Positions 526-62,125 of a DNA stretch of 64,000 bases are shown one piece after another (the stretch's first letter is position 1; each line of letters begins with the position of its first letter). The stretch is taken from the NCBI GenBank assembly GCA_963457665.1, contig OY735219.1, positions 40,538,477 through 40,602,476 on the forward strand, written 5' to 3'. Both the position numbers and the translations under genes were made by a program. The notes below the pieces were generated by a model, which ran no database searches, was not told the origin of the DNA, and was given only the letters and a program-made list of their open reading frames with translations. This stretch comes from Thysanoteuthis rhombus. Its lineage: Eukaryota > Mollusca > Cephalopoda > Oegopsida > Thysanoteuthidae.

Positions 526-683
526 CAACTGGTAAATGAAACATGGTAATTTCTGCCCTTCTCTTTCTGTTGTTTAACATAACCAGAACTGACCAACCAA
601 CAGATGTGTGGACTCATCTGAAAAAAAAAAAATTTTCTAATTTACTTTCATGTAACTTCTCTTCATTTATTGTTCATCCGTAG

Positions 684-870
684 CTGCCAGTGTAAAAGGT
701 GAGCATGGAGGTGCAATGACACCAGCCAGTGCAGATCTGTCCCCTGTCAGCCAAACATCTCCCATCAGCATAAGCCCTCTGAGTTCAGGGGTAAACAGCC
801 CCATTACAGGAGCCACGGAGAAAGATGTCAATCCAGCTGTTCTGAAAATCCACAGTAGAAGATTTCGAGA
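684..870 (+). CDS. SECISBP2L: SECISBP2L exon: linker and start of RNA-binding domain
   Basis: The acceptor is TAG at 681-683 and the donor is GTATGT after 870. A Ser/Pro/Thr-rich linker (SPVSQTSPISISPLSS) is followed by KDVNPAVLKIHSRRFRE, the N-terminal edge of the SBP2 RNA-binding region. The exon ends two bases into the Glu codon, which the next exon completes. The open frame continues past 870 only because the intron lacks an early stop. Confidence 0.9.
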
Positions 871-31416: not shown

Positions 31417-31793
31417 TCATAGCAAATTGCAGGATCCGCATCGCCATGAAAATGTTTCAGAGTTTTGGTTAGTGGCTGGTGGTGTAGTTCTTGGGTAATG
31501 AGTGCTGTGTGTGGGAAACTGCTGAGTGAGGTTTGGATTACTCCCTTGTGTGGTCAGGTAGTGCTGGAAATCCATAGGAGTTGCATTGGAAAGTGTTTCT
31601 TGCACTGAGCTCGAGATAATTTCCCCCTTGTTAGGTTCTTTATGACTAACTGTGCAGTGGACTGGCATAGCAGGGTCTCTTTGTGTTGAACTGCTTGTTT
31701 CTGGTGCTGAATAGTGAGAGATTCGTTGAATGATTTCATTATATTTATCCTCGAGGTCAGCATGGATTCCTGTACCACCATGGCCGCCTATAC
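31417..31793 (-). CDS. ROCO terminal exon: low-complexity tail and stop
   Basis: After the acceptor TTTCAAAG the frame reads GIGGHGGTGIHADLEDKYNE (end of TIR), then about 100 residues rich in Ser, Thr, Gln, Asn and Pro (SAPETSSSTQRDPAMPVH, PTHSTHYPRTTPPATNQ), ending RCGSCNLL and TGA. The open frame extending upstream to 32049 is intron read-through. Confidence 0.88.
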
Positions 31794-34700
31794 CTTTGAA
31801 ACAGAAGAAAGAATAGGTACACAAAAGTTTTCTCACATAGTCATTTTTTTGTAATGGATTTAGATTTATATAAAAATTATCAATCTTTACTTTGAATACA
31901 TATTTCATGTTGAGAGAGATGAAAAAGACTGAGAATAAACAAGATGAGGATTTGGGTTGAAAGCACTTATTAGGCCTTTGCATTATTGGTGGGCTGTTTA
32001 GCACAATGGTAGGTGAATCAGGTAAATTGCTACGGTGAAGCAGCCCCATTGTCTTTAATTGTTTATTCTATCTACGTTGTCTAATTTAAATGGTATTTTA
32101 ACCATGTAATGACAGGAAATAATTTCAGTTGGTTTTTATATAATATAACGCAATTTATAATTTTGTCGGACCAATGATTTAAATGATATTTTAACCGTGT
32201 AACGTCAGGAAATCATTTCAGATAGGTTTCTATATAAAATAATGCAATTCATAATTCATTTTATCAGACCAAATATGTCTATTCCTTGAATACCTGCATA
32301 GATACATATATATATATATATATACATATATATAGATATATATCAACTTGAAGTTTTTCTATGTAATTAGTATTCTTAAAAAGGATATCATAACTTGGTT
32401 TGTATGCAATTCAAGATTAAAGCGGACACAATGGATTTAATATTCACATAGGTGAACACTCAATAGAAGCAACACAAAAAAACGAGTCATGTCCGTTGTT
32501 ATATTCATTGATTCCTCATCATCAAATACGTTTTTTGGGGTAACCTACATTAGTAAGCCCTGTTAAAAAAAAAATGATGTGTAGTATGAAATAGCATCCG
32601 TATACAATACATTATGATAATACCTTATATAAAATAATAAACTACATGTAGTATGACACAAACTATATATTAAAATCATAGCTGAAGGGGATATAGTGTT
32701 TGATCAACACTGCTGGGGAGCCATGTTAATATAACTGTTTTGTTTTTAAATCTCCAGAACAATAACATGGAAAACAACTAATGATCCCAATAAGAAAAAT
32801 TTATACATAGTCCCATAATATCTAAGTCTGTGTAAAATCTATGAATTACATTAATAGATATGAGGAAATAAGTTACTGAAATTGCACAAAAAAACTTTAT
32901 AAAAAGAGTTGTTTTTTTTTAATGTTTAGTGCTTGAAGCTGTAAAGCTTTCTAGACCAACCATATATTTCCTAAATATGTTCAGGGTTTTCTAAAATCTA
33001 GAAAATGGTATAATTTGAACAAATATCTGTTGAGATATTTAACATATAAAGATACGATAAAAATCTGTGGCAAAATATCTGATTTTAAAAGGTAATCTTA
33101 TTTGATTAAATTTCTTTTTAAATGAACAAAAGTTATCAGTCAGTAATATTAATTATAAATACTTTCAATAGACTGAAATAATAAATTGAAAACATAGCAG
33201 TTATAAATCAGTCTAAAAGAAGACAATCTAACTGTTGGTAAGCATGTTTTTGGTTTGTATTTCTGACTTGTGAATGGGAAAATAGATGAACATATATGAT
33301 TTGTACTTCTTGAGATCAAAAGAGACATCATACAAGGTGGAAAAGGAATACAATCAGGACTGGCAGGAATTTCAAGCATCATCGGCAAGATTTGAAAGGG
33401 TTTTATACACCCCTGGTTGTATTCTATTTTTTTTCAGTTCGGAGTACAACTCCAAGACCTAAGTGACCATCTGATGGTCGGATCAGCCATGAATACAATT
33501 ATATTACAAGTAGTTAGTATTCTTTTGTTCATTTGCTCTATCAGGGGAGATAAATTGTCTCCTTTTGAAATCTTGAATTTAAACAACTCTCTCACTCTAT
33601 CCTTATATAGTACTGAACACACAAGTCATACTTACCTTTCATGTTGATATATAAAAGGTTTGAGAAAATTAATGCCATACCACCAGGTGGTGGCCATACC
33701 ACAGTCTCAAACATTACAGGTAGAATTGGCTTGCGTAGTAAATCTGCAAGGCTCAGTTCGCGGCTACAGTGCTTGGAGACAATATATTTTGGAGTGATAC
33801 AAGCTATGACAATCTGTAAGAGAAAATCAAACCAAACAACTAAATAACTCAGATGTTTGAAATTACTATTCTTGTTATATCATTCAGACCTGGAACACAT
33901 ATAGGTGGGCTTTAAATTTTGTGACCATCTTGAATATAGCAATCATTTTGAATAAATAATGAGGTCACATGATTATTATATTTTTATATTTCTACTATAA
34001 ATGAAACCCATATCTTATAACCTTCAAATTGACAAATCAGTTCCAAGGGTTTCTTAGAAAATGAGAAAACTCAAATCCATCCATCATGTTCTTGCTTTGT
34101 GACCCGTAAAAAACTCCAGGTCTGATTGAGTTGAACTTATGTTTTAAATTTAATGAAAAAGAAGCAGTCACATCAAAAAGATTCTTTAACTTGTCTAAAT
34201 AACGTAAAAATGCTTCGTTAATTGATAGCCATTGTTCATAATTATTAAATTCAACACAAATGTGAAAAATAAAATTGTTCGTCACCTGGCTTCCCCACTG
34301 ATCAAAATTATCCACCATGCTTCCATTATGGCTTAAGCCTGAACATATATTGAATTGAAGTAGTTTTTTTTTCTCATTATCATTAGATTTCTCTTGCCTT
34401 GTTTCAAAGACTAACTGACTAACCCTGAGAGAAAGATCATCTTCTGTGGTCTGATTCATCAATGATATCCTATGTACACATAGTACCATTCTCTTTCCTC
34501 AATGGATGTCATTTTACAACCTGGTATTGGAGAAATACCACAAAGATATCAAAAACTAATTAAATTGCTTAGAGCATGATTTTCTGGGTTCTCTATCAGT
34601 AAGTACACTTAGAGGTAACAGGTTTGCTGAATAATAAAATTGTCATATGAGAGAATTCAAATTCAGGCAGCCTGGTGCACAGACCTACATACCAACTTTT

Positions 34701-37700
34701 TACAATAGTCAGTTGTTGAGTTATCACAGTGTATACACACACATGGAGATTTCTAATATTTTAGTAAGGATTCAACTCTAGTAAATAAAAACTTTGCTAA
34801 AGGTTTACAGATCAGTTTTAAAACACTTGAAGAATGATAACTGTTTTGCACCTTGCAGTTCCGTATACCATGTTCTATCTTGTTGTAGAGTTGGTCACCT
34901 CCACCGAGCTGCCCAATATCCATCCAGCAGGAGTAACCAGCTCTCTCAAGCCTGTCCCACAATGCTTGTACCTCATCTTGACTGTCCCATTGGTAGCTTA
35001 TGAACACCTGGGGTGGTGGGGCACACCCTGCTTTATCTGTAATAAAACAGTTTTTATTTAAAAAGGTACAAGAATTTATCCATTTTGTTACTTCAGAATG
35101 AAAACTAATATTATATCAATCAGCATTTTTCTTGTGATAGTAATAAACAAAAAAAATGAAGAACAAAATGAAAATAGGTCTGCTTAGTCATTCAAAAGAA
35201 ACCGTCACTAACCAATGTCTTATGGCAGCATGCTGTGTTGAGGGTGATCAAATTGGGTAAATAGGTGATCAATGAATAAATAACTTCTCACACCATCTGT
35301 TGCACTGTTACACTGTCCTCTGTACAGCAATAGCAGATTAGACCAGGGTTGCCATATTGAGCTACGGGGGGGAAAAGACCTGAACTTTATCCCCAAAACT
35401 TATCCAACACAGGCACTGGAATTCTATTCAATGAATAAGAAGTGACTTGACATTGAGCTTAATGACTGTCAAGGGTGGCTTTTAATTTGTTTGTAGCTGC
35501 AATGATTAATTTTACCAGGTTCAAAATTATTGTTAAACAAGAGGAAAATTGATCTGTGTTACTTACTTTTATGTTCATGCATAATTTCAATAATGTCATA
35601 ACGAGACATCTGCTCCAGAAAGGTAAGCATCACATCAACTGACACCTGAGTGTTTCCACTACTTAGAATCCAATCAGTGAGCAAAGCCAGAGACGGATTC
35701 AAATCATTGTTGAACTTTTCCAACTTGGATTTCTTATAACCTTTAATATATAACAGTAATAAAGATGGTGGTAAAGTAGATAAACACAAAATGATACAAA
35801 GAAAGAACGGTGGAAAGAGAGAAATTGACAGATGAATAGGTGTTGGGTATCACCCCCTACACTTAATTTGGATCAGCCTGAGAAATCCTGTAACTATGTG
35901 AGATATAGATGATCTGTATAAAACTGAGAGAGGGGGAATTTATTCCAAATCCAAGTGAGTAGATAGTAATTCACTTGAAGTGTGAAACTCAATCGACTGA
36001 GTGTCAACTAGAGAAAACTGACTTTGTGCTGAACTAATATTGAAAATGCAAATTTGCACTGAACTTGTTAACACTATCTTACATAAGACTTTTCAACACC
36101 AAACCAATATTAGACCCAGTTTGCAGTGGCAGTACACAAGAAAAGGTTAGAGATAAGGCACCCACTGTACAGCAATAACAGATTAGACCAGGGTTGCCAT
36201 ATTGAGCTACAAGGGGAAAAACCTGACCTTCATGTCCAAAACTTACCCAACATAAGCTTTAGAATAGCATCAAATTTGAATATTGAGCAAGTCTAGAGGC
36301 AGCCTCAAAAGGCTGGTATCGAACCTCTGCCTCCAGTCTTATTTGAGTTCCATAATCAACATTATTCCAATGACTATGTTGGGTAAATCTCAGAGATAAA
36401 GTTCAGGTCAATTCTCTTTGTAGCTAATTCTGGCAACCCTGAATTAGACTTGTAGGTTACACTGCTATTGAGATTGATCTCTTGTTAAAGTCTAACTTTA
36501 TGGCCTTAAACCGGACTAAACCATAGAAAATGTTTACACAATCAATACTTTATAAACATTCTTAGATGAATTATTTATTGAATTCCAATCTGATAGATGA
36601 GATATATATTAAGACTGTAAAATAGTTTTATGGTAATTTTGGCATAAGTTGCCATAAAAAAGAAGTTGAAATAGAAGAAAACAGATGAGATTTTTTTTTA
36701 GTATAAGTTGCTGTTTGTTGTAATCTATTCAAATGAAGAGTCATTATTAAATCTATTGATGACGCAATCATTTACCAAGATGGTTGGCTAAGCAGATCCA
36801 GTCTTGATTTTCCATTCCACTGTTTAATAATTTAGCAGCACTTTTTATCCACTGTGGTAGTTCTGGTAATTCTTTCTCTATATTCCCATTTGACCCTTCC
36901 AATGATATGTCAGGCAAAATTGGTTTTTTCAAGGCTGAAAAAAGGCAGATTGGTATGAAAATAAACACACAAAAAAAGGGGAAAAATGATCTGTACAAAA
37001 TCATCAATTTCAAGGGAAATACCAAATAATATAGTAAATTCAGAAATTCAAGACTGATTTTTTCTATTGGTTGAATCTTGAAGAAGGGCATTACTTGGAA
37101 CTTGATATTATTGTTTAATTTTTGAGTAAAAAAACCCCTCTATGAACATCCCAAACTATTTACTTTAGAAATATATGTATAGATCAAAATACACAGATAA
37201 CATACTCAAGTGTGTAATTAAAAAAACGAAAAACAAGAAAGCCATTTTCTCTACACATTGAAAGGGATGTATGTGCAAAATTTCAACTTTATACTATGAA
37301 TGGTCTAGGCTGGGCTAAGTCCAGATAGATACATACATATAAATGTCAGAATACATGAATAACCCAAACCCAGCAACAGTGATTGAACTGGTCTCTAGTG
37401 AGTGGCAGTGATTATTTACAAGCTTATCAGCACAGCACATGCATCCCCAGACATATTCCAAACATACCCTTTTGGACCCCCCATTCAAACGGAAATATAA
37501 TGTATGTTTTTAGTACCCAGTCCTCTTCTCAGAAAAGTGCATGCCCATGCTTATTATTACCAATTGAATAACTGTCATTACGGAAACATTTTAAAATCTC
37601 CAAAAGAAAAATAGCCTCACCAACTGATGATGGATTAGGGAACCACTTTTGCACAAATCCAGATTTCACTCTTCGATGGCCACAGCAAACCACCTGAAAA

Positions 37701-40700
37701 TACAAAAAAAATTAATTATTACACACAATTTATTATAAATCTACACCAAGTGCTATAGTAAATTATATGATAAAGAGGAAGCTGCTTATTATAATCACAG
37801 ATAATGTTATCGAAAGATTATTGTTACCAAAATTAGTTGGTCCCTAACACTTTATTTAACAAATGTAACCATCAAAGATGGCAAAAGATTCTATTTTTTT
37901 TAATATGTTCCTGTTTGTGTGTTCCAGTGCTCCTGGCCATACTATTTTGTCTATAGAGAAAATTGGTATTAGTATTCCCCCAGACCCCATCAAAAAATTT
38001 TTTGCTATTCCTGGAAAAAAAACAAACTTTTTGGGGCCTTATTTTGACGGGAATCTAGATATTTCCAGGTGTTTCTTTTTTTTTTTTTTTTAACTTTATT
38101 TTACATGTTTCAGTGGAAAACGCCAGTGATGTCATAGATAGAATTTATTCTGACCATATTTATTCTTCAACTGAATTTTTTTTACAATTTAAAAATTTGA
38201 CGTTTATCTTCATAATTAAAGACTTTGTCCCAAAGTGAACACAATGGCCTCTTCTGTATCATTAATGCTTTAGTATCAATATTAGCCAGACTCAAATGAA
38301 ATTTCTTTACCATCCTTATTTGAACCCTTTTAAACATTTAAAAATTCAACATCTGCACAGTAAAATTTACTTACTTTTTCTTCTCACCAATAAACATAGA
38401 GGATTATTGTTTTTCCTACAATACTTAACCTATCAGACTCCTCAAAGATTTTAAAGATTTCAAAAAGTTTAAAGCAGATATTCCATTAGTCTTTTTCCGG
38501 TTTTATCACTGATCCAACCAAACAGCAAAAAACATAGGCTAGAGGTATTCTTCCCTTTTCACTCATCTGTCCAGTCCATCTATAACAGTGCTGCAGGTCA
38601 CAGTTTTTTGGCACTGAACCATGAAAATTTCCATGTGTAGTCCAGTAACCAACTTATAAAAATGGCCTTTTCATTCTTTTGAAACTTGTCTTTTTTCACT
38701 TATTTTTAGTCAATTCAATTCATTTTTGCTTTTTGAAAATTCAGACATTTTCAGTGATCACTACCCAATAAAAAGCAAGAGAAGTAATTTATCCACTGAT
38801 AACCCCTTTTCACAAATTTTTTTAATTGATCATTCCACCACAGCATGCTGCCAAAAGATATTGGTTGTGTGATGGTTTCTATTGAATGATTATTGTTTTC
38901 CCATGAAAATTTAGAGCATGCCTTTCTTACTTGATATCAATAATACTAAATTGTGTACTTGACTCACCTTTTTTGTAAGGCACTCATCAAGATCCAAGAA
39001 ATGAAGACATATTTCTTGAGCACAAGCAATTTTATGATGGAGATCACAGGGACGCCCACACGGGCAACTCACGCATGTTGTATATGAGATACGCTTCATC
39101 CACATTTCACGTAAGTTCAGCAGAGCTGAGTCAAGAAAATTTCGCACCTGATCACAAGTAATCAAAATTTTAAATTTAATCTTAATCAAAAATACTTCAA
39201 ATACATACATGAGTTTTCAAAATAATTTTAAAAATGTATATATATGAAATCATGTAGTGATATTATGATTTTAGATACAATATTTGACGGTATATAAGAC
39301 TTCACTTTCTTTCTCCAAAAAATGTCTGAAAAGGTAAACGTGACCTTCATTGTCCAACCTTACATTGGCAGGAATTAAAAAAACTGGGTGATGAATAAGA
39401 ATAATTCAGGGAAATGCATTTAAAAAAATATTCCCTGTTGTTATAAAAAAGGTCTTATACACATCAAATACAGTGTTTTTATAATTAAGTCTAAAATATA
39501 AAATAACACCAGAAATAGACAGATTTAGCTTTATCATACAAAACAAAATGAATCTACAATCAAATACAGTTAAATCCAAAATTAGGAAGTAACCACATGC
39601 TTTTTAAAAATGTCCGATTTGTCAAATTTGGTCATACTTTTTTCACTGAGATAACATATTTTGTAATGAAATGTTACATTTTGAATAAAATGAATTTCCT
39701 CCTATGACTTTTTAGAAAATACTGCATGATAGCAGTGGTTTTCCTTACATAACATTTCATCTCAAGACTTTATATTCAATCACTCTTTGAAATAACTTGA
39801 GTTAAATATCAATTTTTAAAGAAACTTGAAATTAGAAAACTTGAATGATTAAAAATAAAAATAAATCAGCTTTATGCTCCTTAGTGCTGATCCATACATA
39901 AATAACACATAATTTTTTATGGCTAGATGCTAGTTTACAAGATTGTATAAACTTATAAACTTGCATTCAAGTGTTAAGAGAGCCAAAGCTGCACAAAACT
40001 TACTTCATACACATTTTTTTAGAACAATTTAGATAGTTTAAAATCATCAGTTAATAATTTTTTGATGAGATGAAGACTAGGTCCTATAACCAAGTACAGA
40101 GCTTTCTGTCCCCTGTACTGGCTCATTGGATATGTCTTGGGCTAAATAGTCTGATGAAGCCCATTCCTCTTCAGGCCTCCTTAACCTAATCTTTATGCCA
40201 AGTGCATAGGCATTGAATACCATTTTTCAAGTCTTTGGTATGACTTTGCCACGGATTTAACCTTTGATTTACCAAACCAGAGGTGAGCATTCTACCACAA
40301 GGCCTTGGTGATTGGCGAAATGAAGAAAATTATTGAATATAGACCTGCATTTCATGAATCATTTCCAACAAAAGTTAACAATATCTGAAAATCTAAATAG
40401 TACATCAAGTCAAAAGATTTTCATAAATACCTTTGCCACTGCATGTGGGCTGGCAATGAGGGGTGCTTTCTCACCTTTATCATCAATGTACACACCATCC
40501 TCTCTAGATTCAGTCACTCGCATAACAACCACCTGCCAACAAAAACGTTTAAAGAGTAAACCACTTTACTTACTAAGGAAATCTAAGATGATTCTAGTTT
40601 ATACAGGTATACTTTGATTAGTGCACTTGATTTGTTCAAAAATTTTCCATATTGTTCAAAATTGCACTGTTCCAGGTCTTATGATAATTCAATACGTCCT

Positions 40701-43700
40701 TTTTTTTAGCTTATACTTAATTACATTATTTTGTACAGATCAAAATTTTGTACTACATCAAAACCCTCAAAACATTCATGGTATCTATACTGCTTCAATC
40801 TTTCCAAGTTTATTTGTTCTATGTTATTCAAGTTGTAGCATCTGGTGGCTTCACAGAAGATAAAGTAACAGCAAGTCCCCCTCAATACTCAAAGAATCAC
40901 CCTAGTATTCTAACTGATTCTAATAATGCTGTTGACTGGATCATTTCAATTTTTCGATGGATTTCCGATTCTTCCAACTTTTTCACAAGGCTATCTAGTA
41001 CTATTCCAATGGGTATAATTGGAACTTTCAAATTTTAAATTCTCTTCAATTCTCTAGCAAGTTCCTGATATTTCAGATCCACATTATGAGTTGAGATGAC
41101 CAACGGTTATATAACATTCTTGCAACATGAAGCTCATTGCTATTTGAGTTTTTCAATGGATTCGATGATATCGCTGACTCCTGTTTTTCCTTCAATGTAT
41201 TATGGTGCTATTTTATGGTCACTCCATGTGATGTTGAGCTTGATTCTCTCCTGGGCACGTTGCATGGTTCTCAGAAGATGACTCATAAGTAAATATATAA
41301 TGATACAAGCCTAGCTGCTGCAGGGTCAAACTCCACTTCTACTTCTATTCCAACTGAAAATGATTACTGCAACTTTTTCATTGTATATATGATGAATCAA
41401 TTTGTCTATTTGGCTCAGTTGGTGAGAGTACCAGTTATCAATCACCAGGTTATAATTTCAAATCACAGTAGGGAAATATCAATTTTGTAAACATTTATTC
41501 ATTAGAATGAAATGAGCCCTTTTCTAACATAAATTTTCGTAGACATGTAAAATTCATCAATTTAGCTCAATCGGTATAGAGCTACCTACCAATCAGTTGG
41601 TTGTAATTCAAAATCATGGTAAGAGGCTGTAAATTTTATATATTTATGTGAACGGACAGACAAATACCGAAGAGTTTACAACCGTAAATTAAGTGTTCTT
41701 ATTCTTAGTGATACTGCAGGAAATCAAAGTCAATTCAAGACTTGGACTGGATCTCAGGAATTTAATTGAATGAAAATTGCAGAAAACATTTCATTGTTTT
41801 GTTTGGATACTTTTCAATCAAAAATTGTAGAATTATGATTTTTTTCATACTATTTGTATTTTTTCATTTTAATAAATGGAATTTTCCATTTTGATTTTCT
41901 TTGCATACAGATTCATGATAGCCACTGATGCTGTTACAGAAGATAAAAAATCTGTTGTAAATTCAATGAACCAAACTTAATACAAAAGGAGAAGCTTAAT
42001 TACCTTGATCTTAGCATGAGAACTAGGCATCATTTCCAAGACAAAGTCATGTTCACTGTCAAGGAAAAGGCGGGCCACCCTGTAATACAGATAAGGTTCA
42101 CATCCTCCACACTCTTGAGACCAGCGGATTGCATGGGTCAGTATTCGATGGAATAAAGCCTCTAAAATGAGAATTAAATGGATAGTACATAAAAAATTTG
42201 ACAACAAAATATCAACTCATATTTCAGAAAAAGCATGGTTTATCTCATGCAGACAACTATCAATCACTGGTAGTGTATTCATACCAATTGGGTACTGCAC
42301 GTTCAGGAGACAGCGGTGAATGTTTAGAGGTGAATTCAGAAACATTTTACTGCAATACCGTCCATATCATACAAGAATTGTAAAAATGCAATAATCAGAT
42401 GCAAGATTGTATATAATAGATGGCAAGTCATATATCATTTTGAAGGTTATAAGATATATTTTATGGCAAATTTAAACATATATAATTGTTATGTGACCTT
42501 ATTATGTATTCAAAATGATCGCTATATCTAGGTATTTCATCCATGTGTCTCATGAAATTTGAAGTTCACCTATGCGCGCTACCAGTCAGAACAAGTTATT
42601 ATTGTGAGGAAAAACATAGAAAGATTTCTCTCATGATTCAAGTGGTACACAGATGCTACACATCAAAATTATCTCAAACATTCTATTTTGAAATATCATG
42701 AAACAGATTGCATATTATACATTCCTGGACAAAAATGGATCAAATGTATATGTATATGGGCTTGGCCTATTTTTTTACCCAGAAGTGTATATATAATGGC
42801 TCTGTTCTATCATCAATTCCTGATCACTGACAATCCTTCTATTTCTGATTTTCAATGCACACCATAAAGACGGAGACACAAAACTTGCTCAAATGAATTT
42901 TACATAAAAATTGTAAAACTTAGTTGTTAAATCATCAAAAACCTCTTTTAGGCAGAAATGTTACTATAGTGATTTTCACTCATTCAATGGGAAAGTGCAA
43001 CTTTCCCATTCTTACTACAGTACCAAAAGTGGACAATTAGAAATTCTTCTGTAAAGAGGAAAGGGTCAAAATATATCCTGTAGACTAGAGGTCTTCAAAA
43101 ATTTAACTACTTGGTTACCTTTTTCAATATTCAAATTTTCAAAGGAATATTTTTATTTCTATTATCATTCGGACTATCCTCATCTTGGTTGTTTTTTTTC
43201 ATACAACGTTTCAGCCGTTGTACTCAATGGTCTTCATCAGGTATCATCTGGTAGGTCTGGGGGAAGTAACGAACTGAAACCCTTTATTTAATTGACAGGG
43301 GTATATAGATCGCACCCTCCTCTTAGCAGTAGTAGTATTTTCAAATTATTATTGTCTCACACTGGGATTGAACCAGGAACCATTAGATTACTTGCAGTAA
43401 TTCTGTCTGATTCTCTAACCCATACGCTATGTGGACAACCGGTGCTAATTTTTAGGAGCCTTAAACCTCAGGTGGCAGTTTTTGATATTTGAAGTTACTG
43501 CCATCTGAGGTTCTTAAAAATTAGCACCAGTTGTCCACATGGACAGATAGCGTATGGGTTAGAGAATCAGACAGAATTACTGCAAGTAATCTAATGGTTC
43601 CAGGTTCAATCCCAGTGTGAGACAATAATAATTTGAAAATACTACTACTGATAAGAGGGGAGTGTGGTCTATATACCCCCGTCGGTTAAATAAGGGTTCG

Positions 43701-43858
43701 GTTCGTTACTTCCCCAACACCTACCAGATGATACCGTACAACGGCGGAAACGTTGTATGAAACCAAGATGAGGATAATCCGAATAATAATAGAAATAATA
43801 ATAATACCTCATCTCAAAAATTCAGAGGGTTATTTTTAATAAACAATTTTCTCTTCAA

Positions 43859-43903
<45 letters not shown>

Positions 43904-49900: not shown

Positions 49901-52900
49901 TGGTAAAAGTATAAATGTCCAAACAGAAAACAGAGAAAAGTAATGATCTTTCTTCCTAAATCAAAACAAAAAGTATTTATGCTTTCAAAATTGCCTTTAA
50001 TCAAAACATCAACAATTTTTTTTAACTGAGAAGGATCTCAGTTGAATGTTGCCTTTTGTAGTGATGTTTGATATATATGTAGGTAAATTAGAAAGTCTGG
50101 GGCCTAATGATGAAAATGAATTTATTTTACATAAAAACATATTTTTCCATATAATCTTCAACCTTGTCAATGCACTTAATCCAGGGGTGGATATCATTTA
50201 CATAAATCAAACAGTATACAGTGATACTCTTACACCCATTTAAATTTAGAAAGAAGAGTGTATATTTCAACAAAAGAAAAAATACTTCTATTATTTTCCA
50301 ACTCATTTTTTATTGTCATTTTGTGATCTCTCACCTGATCTACACATGCATAATTATTAGCATTTTCAACAAGCTGAGTAATGACTTGCTCAAACTGAAG
50401 CCACCGTGTTGGAATCTGCTCTCCCATGTATGACTCTTGCAAGGCTGACTTTTGGATTTGTTCTCGTAAATGGCATATCTGAAATAAAACAAGAAAGGAT
50501 ACTATGTTCATGTAATAAAAATGAAAAATACAGGCAAACCCCACCATAGGCTATTTCAATCAATGCAAAATCCAGTTAGTACGGTTCGGATAACTGCAAA
50601 AATTTCCTGTTTTACGCATGTGATTATTCAGTTACTGCAAAATCTTTCAGAAAAATTTGGGATCTCTCAGGAAATATCAGGAAAAATCTAAGAGCCCAAA
50701 ATGAAATACACATGCAAAAATGACTGACTAAGTGTACTTAGTTATTCTTAAAACACATATTTATGTCTTGTGGACAATCTGAAAGGACATGGATTCATTG
50801 TAATTATTCCTATTAATTCTATTAATTACTTGACACAAAATTATTGATGAATTCCTTGAGCAATAGGCTCTGAAAGAAGGGATCAAATTTTGGGACATAC
50901 ACAACACTTGTGCTGGAATACTTATCTTCACATTTTTGGCTATTTCATTTTTTCATAACAAATAAAAACTTAGACCATTATGCAGCTGATAAAATTCTCA
51001 TTCCACTCTGTATGAATATAGGGCTTTATATATGTGTATATATACATACACATATATATATATACATACACACACACAAAATATATTGGTAAAATATCAT
51101 CAGTATGTGCTGAAATAATTATCATCATGTTTTTGTCTGTAACTTCTTTTACACAACAGATACAAATTAACAAGATACATTGTTAGAAAGCTGACAAAGG
51201 TCTCCTTTCCAGTAATATATCATGTCATCTGTACAAACGCTGGGTTTTGTGACCTAAAAACATCTTAGAAAGATCAAATTGGGAAATTACATATAAAAAA
51301 AATTCCACAAAGACCGGTTAGACCCCTATTCTGGTCTTTATTGGCTGGCCTAATTGTATTTCTGGGAAAAAAGTTTCATATTTGAAAATATGAAAAAATA
51401 TAATGAACATTAGTTTGGGAGTTTTACTTATGGAGCTTTGTGAAATCTCAGTTAGACTTATAGTTATGTTTATTCTTCTAACTTGACGAAAAGTTTATGA
51501 TAATTATTAAATGATAGAAGAATAACTATTTCTCCCATCCTTGAGGAACATGAGCAGGAAAAACATAAAAATTAAAACAGACAGAGTTAATGAATTACCA
51601 TAATATATTGAAACAGACAATATGACTTAGTTACATCATTCAATATAGGCAGAGAGAAAGTCAAATACTGAAAAATATGATGTCTTTGAAAAGATGACAT
51701 GAACAAGGAAAATATGAAACCAAGATCAGGAATGAGATGAAAGCAACAAGTTGTTGGATAACAGAAAGGAACATAATAGAAAAGCAGAGTCTTCATTGAA
51801 CCTAACAGCATGCATGAACTAGAAGATGGACATGATATGCAAATCCATTTGGGAACCTCTCATCATGAGGGAATTCTAAAAAATAAAAAAGCCAACAGAT
51901 CATCCAATGCAGAGGAAGCAACTTGGAAATTGACATAACTCCAAAGAAAAAACAAACAAACCCAAATGTGACATGTCCATTCTGAATCATGCATACACTC
52001 TAAGAAGTAACTACACCTTCCAGAATCAACAACACCTGATTAAGGCTAGAGAGAACACGGATGAAATGTTGTAAACTAATGAACACATAGATGGGGAAAA
52101 TAGTCCAACCATATCATACATAATGAAGTTGATAAACAATTACAAAAATACTGCAAGTGCCAAAATAATGGAATCTATGGATCTTGTTTCAAAAGATTTA
52201 TATCTCTACATGAAAGACTCACTTAGCAAGTGAAAAATTGCTTGATGCAACAAGGAACCCTGAATGGATGATGAAAAAGGAAGATACAAAAAGATGTTAA
52301 AAAGGAACAATAGAAAATAATTATAGCCAATAGCATACTCTCTTTTCATGTGGAAAATCCAAAGAGGTTAACATACTGAGGAAATTTTTTACTCAATAGG
52401 AAGGTGAGGACTTCTATATAAGCAGCAGAAGGAATGTAGAAATAAAACCAGGGGATCAAATCATCAATTATTGACTAGCAATTACCCGTAAAAAATGATG
52501 GGGTTATTTATGTATGGATAGGCACCAAAAAACAAAGGTGAAATCCTTTTTAATAATTCAAGTATTCTAATTCTTATTTTATTTTCAAGTCCTAATCAAA
52601 CATCTCTTTCAGTCACTTACATATTCTTTTCTTTTAGTTCCAAACATTCAGCAATTCTGTGACATATTATTAATCGATAACAGCTAATCTCATTTAAAAA
52701 CCATACAATAGTTTTTATAAGCTGTGTTAATCTATTTCACATGGACCAATCCTTTACAACTTTTAGGTTATAACAGGAATCGGACACAACAGAAATACAT
52801 GCAACCATATAATCAAACATACTGATTTGCATATATGGTTATTATATGGATAGATTAAAAAATATGAAAGGAGTAAAAGCAAGAGGAAAAATCTGGAAAT

Positions 52901-55900
52901 GACAGACACCAAAAAAGCTTGTGCCATAATTCCTCAACTCTAGACCTAAGAATATTCAACAGAACATTTGGTCAGTTTTATATAAAATGTAATTAACACC
53001 TGGAAGATAGAGCTAAATGCAAGTGGAAAATCTCTAATTGATATCAAGAGATATCTTTTTAAAAGAATTGCTATTCCTTCTACTCTTGATAATAGCAGTG
53101 ATATTGACTGATTTCTCATGGGATTCTTAAAGGGATTATAGATTCGCTAATTCATCAAAAAGACTCAACTATCTGATGAACATGGACAAACTGAAATTAT
53201 TTGCCGAAAATGAATGAATTAGGAACACTTGTCAAAAGAGTCAGAAAGAATTCAATTGCTGAAAAATGAAAAGGATATCAAATGAGATCACTACAAGAAT
53301 CTTGGAATATTCAAAAAAGATTCTTTTAAACAGGATGAAATGAAGACAAAAGCTAACATCAGGAGAATACGGAAGATTTTGAAAATGAAATGAGATTTGA
53401 TAGCAGAAATATACTCAACATTATCAACCTTTTAGCGTCTATCCTTGGACATAGACCTTCCCCCGGATTTACCAAACCTCTCTATCATAGGCCTCGTGGA
53501 GCCAATACTAAGCTGTGATGAAATAGACAAGTTCAGAAATATATTCAGAGGCATTGAAAGACAGCATCAACAGTAAGATATTCTGAATCCTTCCTAGACT
53601 TTACAAGAGAAGAATTGAGAACTTTCAATCAAAGAACTAGAAATTCAAAGACTATGCATAAAGCCCTACACAAATGATGTCAATAGATTTTATATCTAAG
53701 GGAAAGATGGAGGTAAAGGATTCGTCAGCATTAAAGATTTTGTAGACTATCTAAAGAGTAGTGGAATTTGCACAGCAGAGAAAAAAACGAAAGAGATAAT
53801 AATTATGACAGCAAGAAACTGCAACAGAAATGACAAAAGACCAAAAAATCCTGAAAAACTAAAAAAAGAACTAGAAACTAAAAATGAGGAGAAAAACGAA
53901 TTCATGGAGAATTCAAGTGAGAAAAATAAAGGAATTTGATTGTGAAAAGGGACACCTCAAATGGGAACAAGAATAACTGATAATAGCAGCTCAGAACAAA
54001 TGCATTAAAATGAACTACATCATAGTTAGAATAGATGAAATAACAAATGTTGCCAGTGCAAAGACAGAGATGAAACTATACAAGACATAATAAGTAAATG
54101 TAGCAAATTAATCAGATAGTGTATAAAAAGACATGACTCGGTAGGAAGGCCAATCTTTTGAGGATTGTGCAAACAGCTTGGATTTGACTATATTCCCTAC
54201 TTTTTATTAAACTAGGGGCTGTTGTGAGAATAGAATAGAGAGTACAAAAAATTTGGTGGGGGGGTCAAAATTCAAACAGATTACTCTGAGACAAGATCTG
54301 ATCATCAAAAATAAAGACAAAATCTCTAGCCCCTGCCAGAGAACTAAACAAATCATAGAATATAAAGATAACAACTGCACTCTTCACTGTTGGAATTTTG
54401 GAATGACCCTAAAGATCCTAGCAAAAAAATTGGAAGGAATAAGAACCAGAGGAAGAATTGAAACTATTCAGCCAACAGTATTATCAAAATAGTAAAGAAT
54501 ACCGAAGAGAGTATGAGTATTAAGAAGACTTGTTATCACTTAATCCTCAGTGAAAAATACCAAATACTTTTTTTCTTTAATTCACTGTGTGCAGTATATT
54601 TTAGCACTTCAACTTTTTATCAAATAAGAAATAGGGTTGCTGGCAAGATCTGAAGTGAACGTGAGGGACTATGCGGAGAAACCAGGATCACCTAGTCCTT
54701 ATAAGATATTGTGTTTAAGACTATGTACAGAAGACTTGTACTTAAACCCATCTACTTGGGACTTGCAAACGGAATATTATGATGTCAGTTGGAATCTCAA
54801 ATTTGAATATTTAAGATTTTCTGAATTCAATTGAAGCGTAGGACATTTCAAAGAAATAAAAAAAATCAAAAATAAACTCTTATGATTATACTGGCGACAA
54901 GTCTTTTCTTTACTTGAAGGAAGAAAAAAGTTGCATATGTACATTAGGTAACCAGACAGAACTGCTTACAGTAGCAGTGTCTAGCACTATAAATATAGGA
55001 GACTGTTACTATTGCTTAGTCTTTTAAGCCTAAAGCTGTACATAGTGATTCTTAAATTGGTGAAAGCAAAATTTTGACAATTACTCTGAAATGATTTTTT
55101 TATTATGATTTTTCATTTGTTTTTTTTTCTTACTTTTTATCAGTTCAAATATATAAAAAAAGCATTTTGCACAAAGTATAAAAATGGTGAATATATTTAC
55201 CTCAATATCTTCTCCTTCATTTAAATAATTTTCTACAGCAAAGAAAGGCTTCACAATATGCTTATAATAAGGTTTTCCAACCAAGAACTGATGCAGTTGA
55301 CCAAACTTTTTTTCCACCTGAAAGAGAGAAAAAATAAACATTTTAATAATTTAGACTGCGCTTGTATTGTTTTCAAAAGAATGTATTTTCTACAAGTTTT
55401 ATTTGGTTGACAAAAAAAATACATACAACAAGTTGATCAAAGTTAAAAGAAAAATCCAAGCAGGAACTTTTTCATTTTTCACCTCACTATCAACATCTCT
55501 CAAACAAACAAAATAAGCTTCAGACAATGTAAACAGAAAGTCCTATGTTAATTAATATAATAATGAGTGAGTTGGTTCAGAAATTTGAAAATATGGAGAC
55601 AGGTAGCAGCGCAACTTGAGTCACAATTCAGATAAACCAACTCACTAAAGGGTAGAATCATTGCAAGGATTTGAATACAACTCTTCTTGTAGTATATATA
55701 TGGGTTTCCAACTTTTTGTTAACCCATCTTGCAATATAAAATGAATATCTCAACGTATCTGGATTAATGACTTGTTGAAAAACATATCAACTGAAAAGTA
55801 TCAGAAACTGGTGGAAATATCTGCCCTGAGGTTGGGATTTCCAGGTTAGTTCCAGTGGAAGGCATAAATTGAACTTTTGTCCCAAACGTCAGATCCAAAG

Positions 55901-61900: not shown

Positions 61901-62125
61901 TTAGTGTTTTTTTTTAATAAAGAAAACGCTACTTACCAATTGTTTCTGGATCTCTAAGTCTTCATTCAGGCTATTCCTATGGGTGCCAACAATAAATATT
62001 GGCGGTGAAAGTGTTGTATTAGTGATTGAATTCTTTGTATTTTCAGCAGCGTGGACATGGATGGACTTCATCCAATAATCAATGTAACCCAGACTGGACA
62101 TTTCCTCAGTCAATATTTCTACATC
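31417..62125 (-). CDS. ROCO-family protein with Roc-COR, Cys-rich, Death and TIR domains (5' partial)
   Basis: Fifteen exons with GT-AG borders join without a frame break into 844 codons plus TGA. Fragment residues: about 1-63 Roc GTPase C-terminus (SPPIFIVGTHR, the base-recognition region), about 64-320 COR, 404-488 Cys-rich, about 510-597 Death domain, about 609-722 TIR, 723-844 Ser/Thr/Gln-rich tail. ROCO proteins are GTP-regulated dimeric scaffolds (LRRK, DAPK1, MFHAS1 families); DAPK1 also ends in a Death domain. Death and TIR domains are adaptor modules of innate immunity and cell death, and some TIR domains cleave NAD+. The P-loop and any N-terminal repeats lie beyond the right edge. 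No symbol is given because I do not know an established name for this architecture. Exon structure certain; function inferred. Confidence 0.93.
31794..33635 (-). other. last ROCO intron
   Basis: A/T-rich intron. Two stretches at about 32090-32165 and 32170-32240 are near-duplicates (ATGGTATTTTAACCATGTAA and ATGATATTTTAACCGTGTAA). Nothing else recognised apart from the (TA)n run. Confidence 0.6.
32303..32342. repeat. (TA)n microsatellite, interrupted
   Basis: TA dinucleotides with C and G interruptions in the last ROCO intron. Confidence 0.85.
33636..33813 (-). CDS. ROCO exon: TIR domain, second half with putative catalytic Glu
   Basis: It encodes IVIACITPKYIVSKHCSREL, SLADLLRKPILPVMFETVVW and PPPGGMALIFSNLLYINMK. 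The Glu of SREL (codon at 33757-33759) falls where SARM1-type NAD-cleaving TIR domains have their catalytic Glu. The acceptor is CTCTTACAG, the donor GTAAGT, and one base is left over. Confidence 0.93.
34037..34489 (-). CDS. unidentified 150-codon open frame inside the TIR intron
   Basis: An uninterrupted ATG-to-TGA frame of 150 codons lies within the intron between the two TIR exons, on the gene's own strand. The sequence looks protein-like: HICVEFNNYEQWLSINEAFL, LRYLDKLKNLFDVTASFSLN, IRPGVFYGSQSK. I do not recognise the family. An in-frame stop lies just upstream of the ATG; an overlapping frame starting MTSIEEREWYYVYIG suggests a longer, frameshifted ancestor. By base composition I estimate about 0.1 such frames expected in the window. 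It may be a decayed retrocopy, a nested gene or a skipped exon. Confidence 0.35.
   Translation of the reverse strand: MVLCVHRISLMNQTTEDDLSLRVSQLVFETRQEKSNDNEKKKLLQFNICSGLSHNGSMVDNFDQWGSQVTNNFIFHICVEFNNYEQWLSINEAFLRYLDKLKNLFDVTASFSLNLKHKFNSIRPGVFYGSQSKNMMDGFEFSHFLRNPWN
34852..35036 (-). CDS. ROCO exon: TIR domain, first half
   Basis: It encodes PPPQVFISYQWDSQDEVQAL and GYSCWMDIGQLGGGDQLYNK. VFISYQW is TIR box 1, and WMDIxxLGGG is the BB-loop region in the form common to invertebrate and bacterial-like TIR domains. The acceptor is TTATTACAG; the donor is GTGCAA, weaker than its neighbours. It ends in phase 0. Confidence 0.93.
35200..35290 (-). repeat. dispersed repeat family A, short inverted fragment
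   Basis: The plus-strand reading GGCAGCATGCTGTGTTGAGG and GTGATCAATGAATAAATAAC is the reverse complement of the family's right part. Confidence 0.55.
35322..35415 (+). repeat. single-arm copy of the 36.2-kb foldback repeat
   Basis: ACAGCAATAGCAGATTAGAC and GGGTTGCCATATTGAGCTAC match the left arm at 36165-36255 almost exactly. Confidence 0.65.
35567..35740 (-). CDS. ROCO exon: remainder of Death domain
   Basis: It encodes GYKKSKLEKFNNDLNPSLAL, LTDWILSSGNTQVSVDVMLT and FLEQMSRYDIIEIMHEHK. The LGxxxxxLxxF, NPSLALLxxWI and LxxMxRxDIIEI positions match helices 3 to 6 of a Death domain. The acceptor is ATATTAAAG and the donor GTAAGT. Confidence 0.92.
36160..36475. mobile_element. foldback SINE-like element with tRNA-like box B
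   Basis: The left arm 36160-36258 (AGACCAGGGTTGCCATATTG) and right arm 36370-36475 (CTGGCAACCCTGAATTAGAC) are imperfect reverse complements. The spacer has, on the minus strand, GAGGTTCGATACCAGCC, a good Pol III box B. It lies in a ROCO intron. Confidence 0.6.
36776..36934 (-). CDS. ROCO exon: linker and first Death-domain helices
   Basis: It encodes LKKPILPDISLEGSNGNIEK, a Pro/acidic linker, then QDWICLANHLG, which matches the W-LA-LG motif of Death-domain helix 2. The acceptor is TTTTTTCAG, the donor GTAAAT, phase 1 at both ends. Confidence 0.9.
37621..37693 (-). CDS. ROCO exon: end of Cys-rich segment
   Basis: A short exon of 24 codons plus one base: VVCCGHRRVKSGFVQKWFPN. The CCGHR motif probably closes the Cys/His cluster of the preceding exon. 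The acceptor is TATTTTCAG and the donor GTGAGG. Confidence 0.85.
37770..38640 (-). repeat. dispersed repeat family C, inverted copy
   Basis: 37775-37855 is the reverse complement of 27155-27235. 38500-38640 is the reverse complement of 21915-22075 (GATGAGTGAAAAGGGAAGAA, TACCTCTAGCCTATGTTTTT). It lies in a ROCO intron. Confidence 0.5.
38690..38900 (+). repeat. dispersed repeat family A, 3' part
   Basis: CTTTTTGAAAATTCAGACAT, CACTACCCAATAAAAAGCAA, GCATGCTGCCAAAAGATATT, TTTCTATTGAATGATT. Only the right two-thirds is present. It lies in a ROCO intron. Confidence 0.65.
38968..39147 (-). CDS. ROCO exon: Cys/His-rich segment
   Basis: 60 codons: VRNFLDSALLNLREMWMKR then TTCVSCPCGRPCDLHHKIAC and EICLHFLDLDECLTKK. 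Cysteines and histidines cluster as CxxCxCxxxCxxHH with further Cys downstream, which could bind zinc. Invertebrate ROCO proteins often carry a comparable Cys-rich piece after COR. Phase 0 at both ends; donor GTGAGT. Confidence 0.92.
40065..40325 (-). repeat. tRNA-derived SINE-like sequence
   Basis: On the minus strand CTTGTGGTAGAATGCTCACC resembles a tRNA box A region and AAGGTTAAATCC a box B. Non-tRNA sequence follows to about 40065. Spacing between the boxes is tRNA-like. Confidence 0.5.
40431..40532 (-). CDS. ROCO exon: post-COR strand region
   Basis: 34 codons: VVVMRVTESREDGVYIDDKG then EKAPLIASPHAVAK. It continues the beta-rich region after COR. Phase 0 at both ends; acceptor TTGGCAG, donor GTATTT. 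Confidence 0.9.
40610..40800 (+). repeat. dispersed repeat family B, left fragment
   Basis: Homologous to 45880-46030 in the same orientation. It lies in the neighbouring ROCO intron. Confidence 0.5.
41090..41282 (-). mobile_element. 3' fragment of RTE-type LINE
   Basis: On the minus strand it matches the RTE C-terminal region (ATTCTTGCAACATGAAGCTC and GGTCACTCCATGTGATGTTG, plus-strand reading). It is truncated at both ends and lies in a ROCO intron. Confidence 0.65.
41320..41790 (+). repeat. tRNA-related SINE-like repeat with two tRNA-like units, copy 2
   Basis: Unit 1: TGGCTCAGTTGGTGAGAGTA (box A-like) and GGTTATAATTTCAAATCAC (box B-like). Unit 2: TAGCTCAATCGGTATAGAGC and GGTTGTAATTCAAAATCA. 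The units are about 170 bases apart. It lies in a ROCO intron, antisense to the gene. Confidence 0.6.
42004..42161 (-). CDS. ROCO exon: C-terminal COR half
   Basis: It encodes ALFHRILTHAIRWSQECGG, CEPYLYYRVARLFLDSEHD and FVLEMMPSSHAKIK. The FLPxALFHRLL-type helix followed by a beta-rich segment (YYRVARLFLD, FVLEM) is usual for the end of COR. The acceptor is CATTTTAG and the donor GTAATT. Confidence 0.92.
43153..43799. mobile_element. foldback element with about 300-bp arms
   Basis: The left arm 43153-43478 and right arm 43498-43799 are near-perfect reverse complements around a spacer of about 19 bases. Each arm includes a tRNA-like unit (box-B-like GGTTCAATCCCAG, right-arm reading; AGCGTATGGGTTAGAGAATC near box A) and a hammerhead-like region. 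The right arm lacks 16 bases in the motif and has an 8-base insertion. It lies in the ROCO intron 42162-45274. Confidence 0.85.
43196..43245 (-). ncRNA. hammerhead-ribozyme-like motif in foldback arm
   Basis: On the minus strand CTGATGA (43240-43234) is followed by AGACC, a loop, GGCT, then GAAACGTTGTA. Stem II is short with a bulge, GAAA is intact, and a GTA triplet follows. The element's other arm has lost 16 bases including CTGATGA. Confidence 0.4.
43861..43902. repeat. (TA)n microsatellite
   Basis: Pure TA run of 42 bases just right of the foldback element. Confidence 0.95.
44695..45065 (+). repeat. dispersed repeat family A, copy
   Basis: GCTGGCTGGCAATGTATGTA, GTTTATGCTAAATTGATCCC, TGCCCAACAAAAGGTAAG and TACTGAGTAACTAACCAGAT. 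It lies in the ROCO intron before exon 45275-45404. Confidence 0.7.
45275..45404 (-). CDS. ROCO exon: COR domain, second half
   Basis: 43 codons plus one base: VENTKVASYYVPGRFHLVRD and VTFYLNFLGFLP. The YYVPxRF motif is the conserved start of the C-terminal COR half. The acceptor is GTTTACAG and the donor GTATAG. The leftover G joins AG of the next exon to make Glu. Confidence 0.9.
45870..46790 (+). repeat. old dispersed repeat family B, longest copy
   Basis: The part at 45900-46030 is homologous to 40630-40780, and 46070-46760 is homologous to 49300-49590 (with gaps). Shared strings include AATTTGTACAGCAATATC versus TTTTGTACAGATCAAAAT, and GGCTAGTATTAACAATGGAT versus AGCTAGTATTAACAATGAAT. 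Non-coding. Confidence 0.55.
47319..47477 (-). CDS. ROCO exon: COR domain, middle
   Basis: 53 codons: LIDKWQQLEKYGILDDQLVN, HLWADDLDQKMALLGLLEKF, DLICKRMPSK. It matches the COR segment that precedes the variable loop. Phase 0 at both ends; acceptor ATTTCAG, donor GTGGGT. Confidence 0.93.
48362..48571 (-). CDS. ROCO exon: COR winged-helix-like part
   Basis: 70 codons: LGIEDQDEVQTMLEFYHDLG, LIVYYGGGSGTVDNILQN, LVILSPQWLVDMFKRIITA. The xxxLxPQWLVDMFKxII string is strongly diagnostic of COR. The acceptor is CCCCCAG, the donor GTGAGT, and the exon is phase 0 at both ends. Confidence 0.95.
48705..49095. mobile_element. MITE-like element with long inverted arms, copy 2
   Basis: Same structure and order as 27535-27930: CTTGGGTGTGCTGTG, then GAGGGAAGGTG, a central GAGGGTGTGAAAC, CACCTTCCCTACATTGTAAC, and GCAGCACACCCAAG. 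It lies in the ROCO intron 48572-50334. Confidence 0.65.
49290..49600 (+). repeat. dispersed repeat family B, right fragment
   Basis: Homologous to 46060-46760 with a large internal gap. It ends near TTGGATTCCCAAACTCTC, compared with TTGAATTCCAAACTTTAT. Confidence 0.5.
50335..50478 (-). CDS. ROCO exon: COR domain, start
   Basis: 48 codons: ICHLREQIQKSALQESYMGE then QIPTRWLQFEQVITQLV. The YMGEQIPxRWLQFE string is a hallmark of the COR N-terminal half. The acceptor is TTTCAG, the donor GTGAGA, and the exon is phase 0 at both ends. Confidence 0.93.
51026..51085. repeat. mixed (TA)/(CA) microsatellite
   Basis: Alternating TATG, TACA and CACA units; an imperfect array in a ROCO intron. Confidence 0.8.
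51890..52135 (+). repeat. dispersed repeat with hammerhead-like motif, copy 2
   Basis: Homologous to 25915-26150 and in the same order. The ribozyme-like core is mutated here (CTGATTA instead of CTGATGA). It lies directly before the decayed LINE at 52190. Confidence 0.6.
52190..54490 (+). pseudogene. decayed non-LTR retrotransposon, RT core to C-terminal region
   Basis: Frames shift repeatedly, but the order of RT-family blocks is clear. KKGTIENNY-like sequence near 52290 is RT entry. GKSLIDIKRYLFKR near 53030 is the block before the catalytic motif. MDKLKLFAENE at about 53175-53215 is a damaged catalytic box. Next come FKQDEMKTKANIRR, LDFTREELRTFNQRTRNS, GKDGGKGFVSIKDFVDYL (near 53700), then LIIAAQNKCIKMNYI and LEGIRTRGRIETIQPTVL near 54440. 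The layout matches a LINE type widespread in invertebrates, whose clade I leave open. It lies in the ROCO intron between exons at 50478 and 55201. Confidence 0.75.
53432..53535 (-). mobile_element. short RTE-type LINE tail nested in another LINE
   Basis: The plus-strand reading CTATCCTTGGACATAGACCT and CCCCCGGATTTACCAAACCT is the reverse complement of the RTE 3' end. It interrupts the second LINE at 52190-54490, so it inserted later. Confidence 0.7.
55201..55317 (-). CDS. ROCO exon: Roc-COR junction
   Basis: 39 codons, phase 0 at both ends: VEKKFGQLHQFLVGKPYYKH then IVKPFFAVENYLNEGEDIE. This matches the Roc-COR linker region typical of invertebrate ROCO proteins. The acceptor is TTTCAG and the donor GTAAAT. 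Confidence 0.9.
56095..57135 (-). repeat. tandem array of about 230-bp diverged monomers
   Basis: The module 'cacaaaataagggatcaat' recurs at about 56227, 56452, 56692 and 56921 (diverged). The module 'catagtcccataaataacca' recurs at about 56105, 56318, 56553, 56795 and 57032. Spacing is about 215-242 bases, with five units. The first module is the reverse complement of the middle of family A, so the array is built from that family in inverse orientation. It lies in the first visible ROCO intron. Confidence 0.65.
57140..59900 (-). other. part of first visible ROCO intron, nothing recognised
   Basis: A/T-rich DNA without exon-like segments. The 103-codon minus frame at 57918-58229 has no protein-like character I recognise. 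Confidence 0.5.
59901..59980. repeat. short minisatellite
   Basis: Three units of TTCTTTAGGTCATTGGGTGC with short CTTCTC spacers, at 59901, about 59929 and about 59961. Confidence 0.85.
60290..60640 (+). pseudogene. second GIY-YIG relic of a Penelope-like element
   Basis: The plus strand reads NCILCSCGNKYKGETNCSLK then ARLEE and a stop, followed by AIIFGETTKSH and ADHIRREKGSHQ. This is the C-S-C-G-x-x-Y-x-G-E-T start of a GIY-YIG domain, with the second Tyr-Ile-Gly changed to Tyr-Lys-Gly, plus its helical continuation. It lies antisense in the first visible ROCO intron. The minus-strand frames here (60004-60309, 60276-60548) are shadows. Confidence 0.6.
61937..62125 (-). CDS. ROCO exon: C-terminal part of Roc GTPase domain
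   Basis: On the minus strand the acceptor TTGTAG precedes GATGTAGAA and the donor is GTAAGT. The 63 codons include EEMSSLGYIDYWMKSIHVHA and LSPPIFIVGTHRNS. The strand ending VGTHR corresponds to the guanine-recognition (NKxD-like) region of Roc. The exon starts and ends in phase 0. Upstream exons with the P-loop were not found up to 64000. Confidence 0.88.

Follow-up and report, generated by a model that had tools for sequence, protein, structure and literature searches.

A Candidate Squid Member of an Invertebrate Family of Neuralized-ROCO-Death-TIR Proteins

A stretch of 64,000 nucleotides from the genome of the squid Thysanoteuthis rhombus (the window) holds part of a minus-strand gene whose predicted product, completed with upstream sequence, reads in the order Neuralized (NHR), Roc, COR, Cys-rich segment, Death and TIR. 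On balance, it seems probable that this gene belongs to an invertebrate family of that architecture and represents it in squid, and that its product would act as an immune or cell-death scaffold controlled by the Roc-COR module and equipped with a TIR domain of the NADase type. Modules that are better known from separate proteins are united in such a family on one polypeptide: a sensor-like domain and a GTP switch, together with a Death adaptor and a TIR of the type that cleaves NAD. Were the TIR domain active, this would be an animal ROCO protein that drives an NADase, linking the switch family of LRRK and DAPK to the TIR chemistry that SARM1 has in common with bacterial defence. To the family, the squid gene would add a seemingly intact cephalopod member, found in one copy, whose two oddities are a G4 motif reading THRN and a C-terminus reading CNLL.

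Gene Structure

Exons were called by combining open reading frames with splice signals and phase. Fifteen of them occupy positions 31417..62125 of the window on the minus strand and make up a single open frame with canonical splice sites: the acceptor is AG in 15/15, the internal donor is GT in 14/14, and all 14 junctions agree on one frame, for a total of 845 codons including the stop. A first-pass annotation of this stretch had proposed 15 in-frame exons encoding the C-terminus of Roc, COR, a Cys-rich segment, Death and TIR in a single chain; their coordinates, strand and number hold, and the common frame, together with the Pfam matches to COR-A, Death and TIR_2, supports the chain. Because the window edge falls inside the gene, the 100 kb upstream on the same contig were analysed too (the 177 bases shared with the window are identical). 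Positions above 64,000 are extended window coordinates and lie upstream of the part of the gene found in the window. The modelled exons are given below, the basis of each assignment in brackets.

112842-112335, minus strand: upstream exon, near-complete Neuralized (NHR) domain (phase, Pfam)
80270-80108, minus strand: upstream exon, P-loop GKAKVGKTS (phase)
73660-73497, minus strand: upstream exon, Roc switch I (phase)
70575-70282, minus strand: upstream exon, G3 part of Roc, same frame as the window exons (phase)
64788-64690, minus strand: upstream exon, same frame as the window exons (phase)
61937..62125, minus strand: C-terminal half of Roc, G4 motif VGTHRN at 61990-61973 (splice sites, frame, motif position)
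55201..55317, minus strand: end of Roc and linker toward COR (splice sites, frame)
50335..50478, minus strand: start of COR-A, IPTRW (splice sites, frame, Pfam)
48362..48571, minus strand: core of COR-A, where PF16095 also matches the raw genome (splice sites, frame, Pfam)
47319..47477, minus strand: end of COR-A (splice sites, frame, Pfam)
45275..45404, minus strand: COR-B region, assigned by position without a Pfam COR-B match (splice sites, frame)
42004..42161, minus strand: COR-B region, assigned by position (splice sites, frame)
40431..40532, minus strand: COR-B region, assigned by position (splice sites, frame)
38968..39147, minus strand: Cys/His-rich segment, possibly metal-binding (splice sites, frame)
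37621..37693, minus strand: end of the Cys/His-rich segment (splice sites, frame)
36776..36934, minus strand: first half of the Death domain (splice sites, frame, Pfam, Death comparison)
35567..35740, minus strand: second half of the Death domain (splice sites, frame, Pfam, Death comparison)
34852..35036, minus strand: first half of TIR (splice sites, frame, Pfam, TIR comparison)
33636..33813, minus strand: second half of TIR; the Glu at 33759-33757 aligns with the Glu of NADase TIRs (splice sites, frame, TIR comparison, motif position)
31417..31793, minus strand: last exon, with the end of TIR, a Ser/Thr-rich tail, the C-terminal CNLL (31431-31420) and the stop (splice sites, frame, motif position)

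Joined to the window exons, those at 70575-70282 and 64788-64690 give a 17-exon part of 976 codons including the stop, with zero internal stops. The NHR, P-loop and switch I exons are in turn mutually in phase. The phases of the exon ends at 73497 (switch I) and 70575 (G3) are incompatible, so that at least one short exon or an alternative splice site is absent from the model; a 20-base candidate exon at 70946-70927 was not accepted as the link, and no other in-phase exon bridging the two ends was found. The NHR exon, about 48 kb past the window edge and 32 kb from the next modelled exon, is tied to the P-loop exon by phase and by a published domain combination, and this remains a gene model rather than a transcript; its start codon, a suitable ATG, is a guess. 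As modelled, the gene counts 20 exons over about 81 kb.

Judged from random stretches of window introns with matched lengths and phases, the chance that all window exons would be open is about 10^-23, a rough figure, as it does not allow for the choice of the exons among numerous open frames, and as the stop was included in the last one; the domain matches described below are stronger evidence for a gene. GC content is 42.6% in the 20 modelled exons vs. 31.2% in the window introns, and by codon position it amounts to 52/35/40% in the 17-exon part. A fragment resembling a LINE reverse transcriptase was recognized by eye at 77168-78262 (extended coordinates, minus strand), within one of the gene's introns (6.4 kb). 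Elsewhere in the window, a plus-strand gene with exons in 656-9638 is likely, which would stand tail-to-tail with the ROCO gene; its frame 5181-5453 matches Ribosomal_L7Ae (7e-7) and presumably resembles SECIS-binding protein 2.

The Neuralized, Roc, and COR Domains

Pfam profiles were run on the spliced protein parts. This domain search had been named as a check in the first-pass annotation, and COR-A, Death, TIR_2 and the G3 part of Roc all score above their cut-offs. The N-terminal upstream exon matches Neuralized (E 1.6e-40, 138.9 bits), and this match (C22:40650821-40651273) is the best of 17 genome-wide. The Roc profile PF08477 is found in two pieces, both upstream of the window, namely the G3 part (E 9.7e-9, 35.9 bits), which passes the cut-off of 27, and the P-loop part (E 2.3e-5, 25.1 bits), which falls slightly under it; Roc within the window starts after the G3 part and bears G4. 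The Roc motifs include the P-loop GKAKVGKTS and the G3 sequence WDFAGQ. COR-A follows directly after Roc (E 4.2e-17, 62.8 bits vs. a cut-off of 35.3), and the COR part matches structures 4wnr and 3dpu, which we take to be archaeal and bacterial Roco proteins. The Pfam COR-B model gave no match in the spliced protein at E 0.1, although it does match the paralogue on contig C345. No Pfam model matches the Cys/His-rich segment that separates COR from Death, and the Pfam matches of the spliced protein include neither LRR nor kinase.

The G4 motif of ROCO proteins usually reads THxD or NKxD, which is usual without being strictly defining, and in Ras-like proteins the G4 aspartate selects guanine. 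Here G4 reads THRN and departs from this pattern, the two other COR-A loci found in the genome having THSD and THAD. Given the role of the aspartate, its replacement by asparagine may alter nucleotide preference, and THRN may weaken guanine binding. Since squids edit their RNA heavily, editing of the asparagine codon, AAT at 61975-61973 (minus strand), was considered: an A-to-I change giving GAT would restore THxD. The preceding base is G, however, which is a poor context for editing.

Several themes of the literature bear on these modules. In the available portion of one study, Neuralized is counted among the domains of eukaryotic immunity and is characterised as SPRY-like, with a concanavalin fold (PMC8195603). 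The same study describes prokaryotic relatives in which at least 24 different C-terminal domains occur, passages of another assign AP-GTPase-COR proteins to bacterial conflict systems (PMC7159879), and the effect of nucleotides on adjacent ROCO domains is discussed in excerpts of a third, where LRRK2 and DAPK1 differ (PMC4104024).

The Death and TIR Domains

The Death domain passes its Pfam cut-off at residues 654-726 (E 3.2e-8, 34.0 bits). It is closest in sequence to the Death domains of p75NTR and NRADD (1.4e-6 to 3.1e-5), MyD88 being reached at E 1.4. The TIR domain matches Pfam TIR_2 with an E-value of 2.1e-24 (86.8 bits) and Pfam TIR with 21.2 bits. Its best solved relatives are the TIR protein 3h16, 7uxr, the NAD(+) hydrolase AbTIR (8g83), 7uwg and the CRISPR-associated Cat1; SARM1 ranks next, with weak E-values of 0.009-0.16. 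MyD88 is absent among the 23 solved sequences listed up to E 1 and, with the TIR query trimmed shorter, among the 27 listed up to E 10. The second half of TIR alone gave 0 matches against the PDB up to E 10.

In all five bacterial TIR alignments examined (that of SARM1 not being among them), the Glu of the motif CSREL faces a Glu, which we take to be the catalytic residue of NADase TIRs; the aligned stretch stops 1-2 residues past this position in 4/5. The TIR domain thus resembles the NAD+-hydrolase type, a sequence likeness in which the kept Glu does not prove NADase activity. The TIR part also has three NCBIfam matches, all well under cut-offs. Of its nine PADLOC matches, bSEFIR (1e-13) ranks first, and models for TIR-argonaute, SAVED-TIR and ThsB are among the rest. 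The C-terminus reads CNLL, a CaaX-like sequence; as such ends can be prenylated, this one could be a prenylation site.

Copy Number and Molluscan Setting

The genome searched comprises 2.73 Gb on 514 contigs. Twenty of contigs C1 to C48 have measured lengths of 30.5-94.6 Mb, against 0.74 Mb for C49; with the others placed by their size-ordered numbering, C1 to C48 look chromosome-sized. At E ≤0.01, a query of Death plus TIR gave at least six matches, a lower bound as 10 candidates were scored; five of them fall at the ROCO gene, and the remaining match is weak (E 0.007, 42% over 38 residues). The gene is apparently intact, and it is the only copy found among the 10 candidates. Two other ROCO loci consist of long single open frames: L001 (C11) reads LRR-Roc by eye, and L003 (C345) is LRR-Roc-COR by Pfam, with COR-A slightly below cut-off. 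The latter looks MFHAS1-like, which would place it in a group that excerpts of PMC4104024 ascribe to deuterostomes only. The genome has 48 TIR_2 matches, of which 15 form a single-strand array at C34:2946573-3207301 (L020-L038 in part) with a spacing of 13.6-16 kb in 10 of 14 steps. A weak TPR match, short of its cut-off, is present in the frame at L020, and the array may consist of tandem TPR-TIR genes.

The first-pass annotation had framed its case in vertebrate terms, a framing contradicted by the hemocyanin arrays of molluscan type found in this genome. The tyrosinase/hemocyanin model matches the genome 66 times, and 57 of these matches, on C32 and C25, show the molluscan arrangement in which single functional units follow one another in runs. 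For one unit (L079), the best match (636 bits, 331 residues) is to "Hemocyanin subunit 1", chain 6r83_1a, which we take to be the hemocyanin of the squid Todarodes. Over 64 residues, L080, L082 and L083 each differ from 6r83_1a at 2, L078 at 9 and L079 at 11; three of the five units compared thus match at 62/64 residues, and a vertebrate origin is ruled out by these arrays. A decapod cephalopod is the reading that suits the data best; the hemocyanin matches and the number of chromosome-sized contigs, squids having about 46 chromosome pairs, favour a squid over an octopus. A separate feature of C25 (56608286-56626269) is a series of nine hemocyanin-unit matches about 2.2 kb apart, identical in E-value and in their 464-codon frame, which is either a very recent expansion of units or an assembly artefact. 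Toll-like genes with two cysteine clusters, a protostome type of Toll, were also read from open frames. As the host is an invertebrate and the architecture has already been recorded in invertebrates, the claim of novelty falls. What stands of the earlier interpretation is the single chain and, as a reasonable reading, the combination of a switch with Death and TIR; what does not is the argument for novelty, which was built on a vertebrate setting. The Neuralized domain lay beyond the stretch that had been annotated, and the NADase-like type of the TIR went unmentioned there.

Proposed Mechanism and Alternative Explanations

From the types of the TIR and Death domains, the WDFAGQ motif and the ROCO literature, we infer a chain of events in which NHR senses, Roc-COR switches, TIRs cleave NAD+ and Death signals. 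The NHR domain, with its SPRY-like fold, would sense either some ligand or a host component that has been damaged, upon which the Roc-COR module would alter its dimer state according to the bound nucleotide. This change could cluster the TIR domains, which would then cleave NAD+ or form a cyclised product, while the Death domain would recruit or assemble more death-fold partners. The CaaL-like C-terminal motif may tether the protein to membranes, and the likely outcome would be an innate immune or cell-death signal. The fuller version strikes us as rather improbable: a signalosome in a single chain, where the Roc-COR dimer, through its nucleotide state, would directly gate an NAD+-cleaving TIR beside Death, a prenylated end would provide the membrane tether and the G4 Asn would shift preference away from guanine.

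A minor share of probability goes to a MyD88-like adaptor, whose inactive TIR would dock onto Toll receptors and whose Death domain would recruit kinases of the IRAK type, with Roc-COR merely tuning assembly. The order Death-then-TIR is that of MyD88, Toll-like genes can be read from frames in this genome, and an Aplysia ROCO protein (LOC101861518) has been classed as MyD88, as far as the available text goes (PMC9334734). The sequences point the other way, as the TIR domain matches NADase-type TIRs, with MyD88 missing from the matches listed, and the Death domain is nearer to p75NTR/NRADD than to MyD88. It is less likely that the protein is a non-immune neural or developmental regulator, with NHR binding a Notch-ligand or lipid partner and TIR acting as in SARM1 during axon degeneration. 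In its favour are the occurrence of NHR in Neuralized, the presence of SARM1 in the list of TIR matches and the finding of one copy, with no expansion in the style of immune genes; the SARM1 matches are weak, however.

It is also unlikely that COR and Death-TIR belong to separate mRNAs, and very improbable that two adjacent genes, NHR-ROCO and Death-TIR, have been misread as one. The words AATAAA or ATTAAA occur eight times (7 + 1) in the two introns from the first Cys-rich exon to the Death exon, where about 7 would be expected from composition, and zero times within about 1 kb past the final stop codon. Yet every junction from 70575 to the stop is in phase, including that from the Cys-rich to the Death exon, and the first Death exon offers no in-frame ATG ahead of the domain, its first Met being residue 659, inside the Death match. 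Moreover, neuralized, Death and TIR_2 are co-listed for oyster and centipede in the part of the source available (PMC5094078).

Comparison with Known Systems

Searches of the open-licence literature turned up no experimental work on a Neuralized-ROCO-Death-TIR protein, and the main texts of two papers (PMC7075850, PMC13142454) contain no ROCO, Roc, COR or neuralized. The architecture itself is known: as described in the available part of PMC5094078, the oyster Crassostrea gigas and the centipede Strigamia maritima have a Neuralized-Roc/COR-Death-TIR_2 combination, most similar to NG3 of the anemone, with neuralized replacing kinase and SH3. The squid gene, compared by description only, shares Neuralized, Roc/COR, Death and TIR_2 with this combination. 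It has Roc/COR-Death-TIR in common with NG3 (kinase, SH3, Roc/COR, Death, TIR), which carries kinase and SH3 where the squid protein has Neuralized. In Aplysia, the accessible text of PMC9334734 reports two Toll-like proteins with ROCO and a MyD88-like protein with ROCO, LOC101861518, classed as MyD88 by its domains; its results name one such MyD88-like gene and its discussion two, and, for the TIR/COR proteins, the Fig. 6 legend names an NHR domain. As described there, LOC101861518 resembles the squid protein in being a single molluscan chain with ROCO, Death and TIR (PMC9334734).

Among more distant systems, MyD88 has in common with the squid protein the order Death-then-TIR, but its Death and TIR sequences are of other types, and membership in MyD88 was rejected on this ground. 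To our knowledge, MyD88 has neither Roc-COR nor NHR. With SARM1 and the bacterial TIR NAD+ hydrolases, the squid TIR shares its sequence type and, with the bacterial ones, the aligned Glu; SARM1 has ARM and SAM domains beside its TIR and the bacterial enzymes carry bacterial partners, whereas the squid protein has NHR-Roc-COR-Death. LRRK, DAPK1 and MFHAS1 share the Roc-COR core with the squid protein, which is without Pfam matches to LRR or kinase, and we know of no TIR domain in these three. Against this background, what the squid gene would add to the oyster and centipede architecture is its modelled N-terminus, an NADase-like TIR with an aligned Glu, a Death domain of apparent p75NTR/NRADD type, the THRN and CNLL motifs, and the finding of a single copy.
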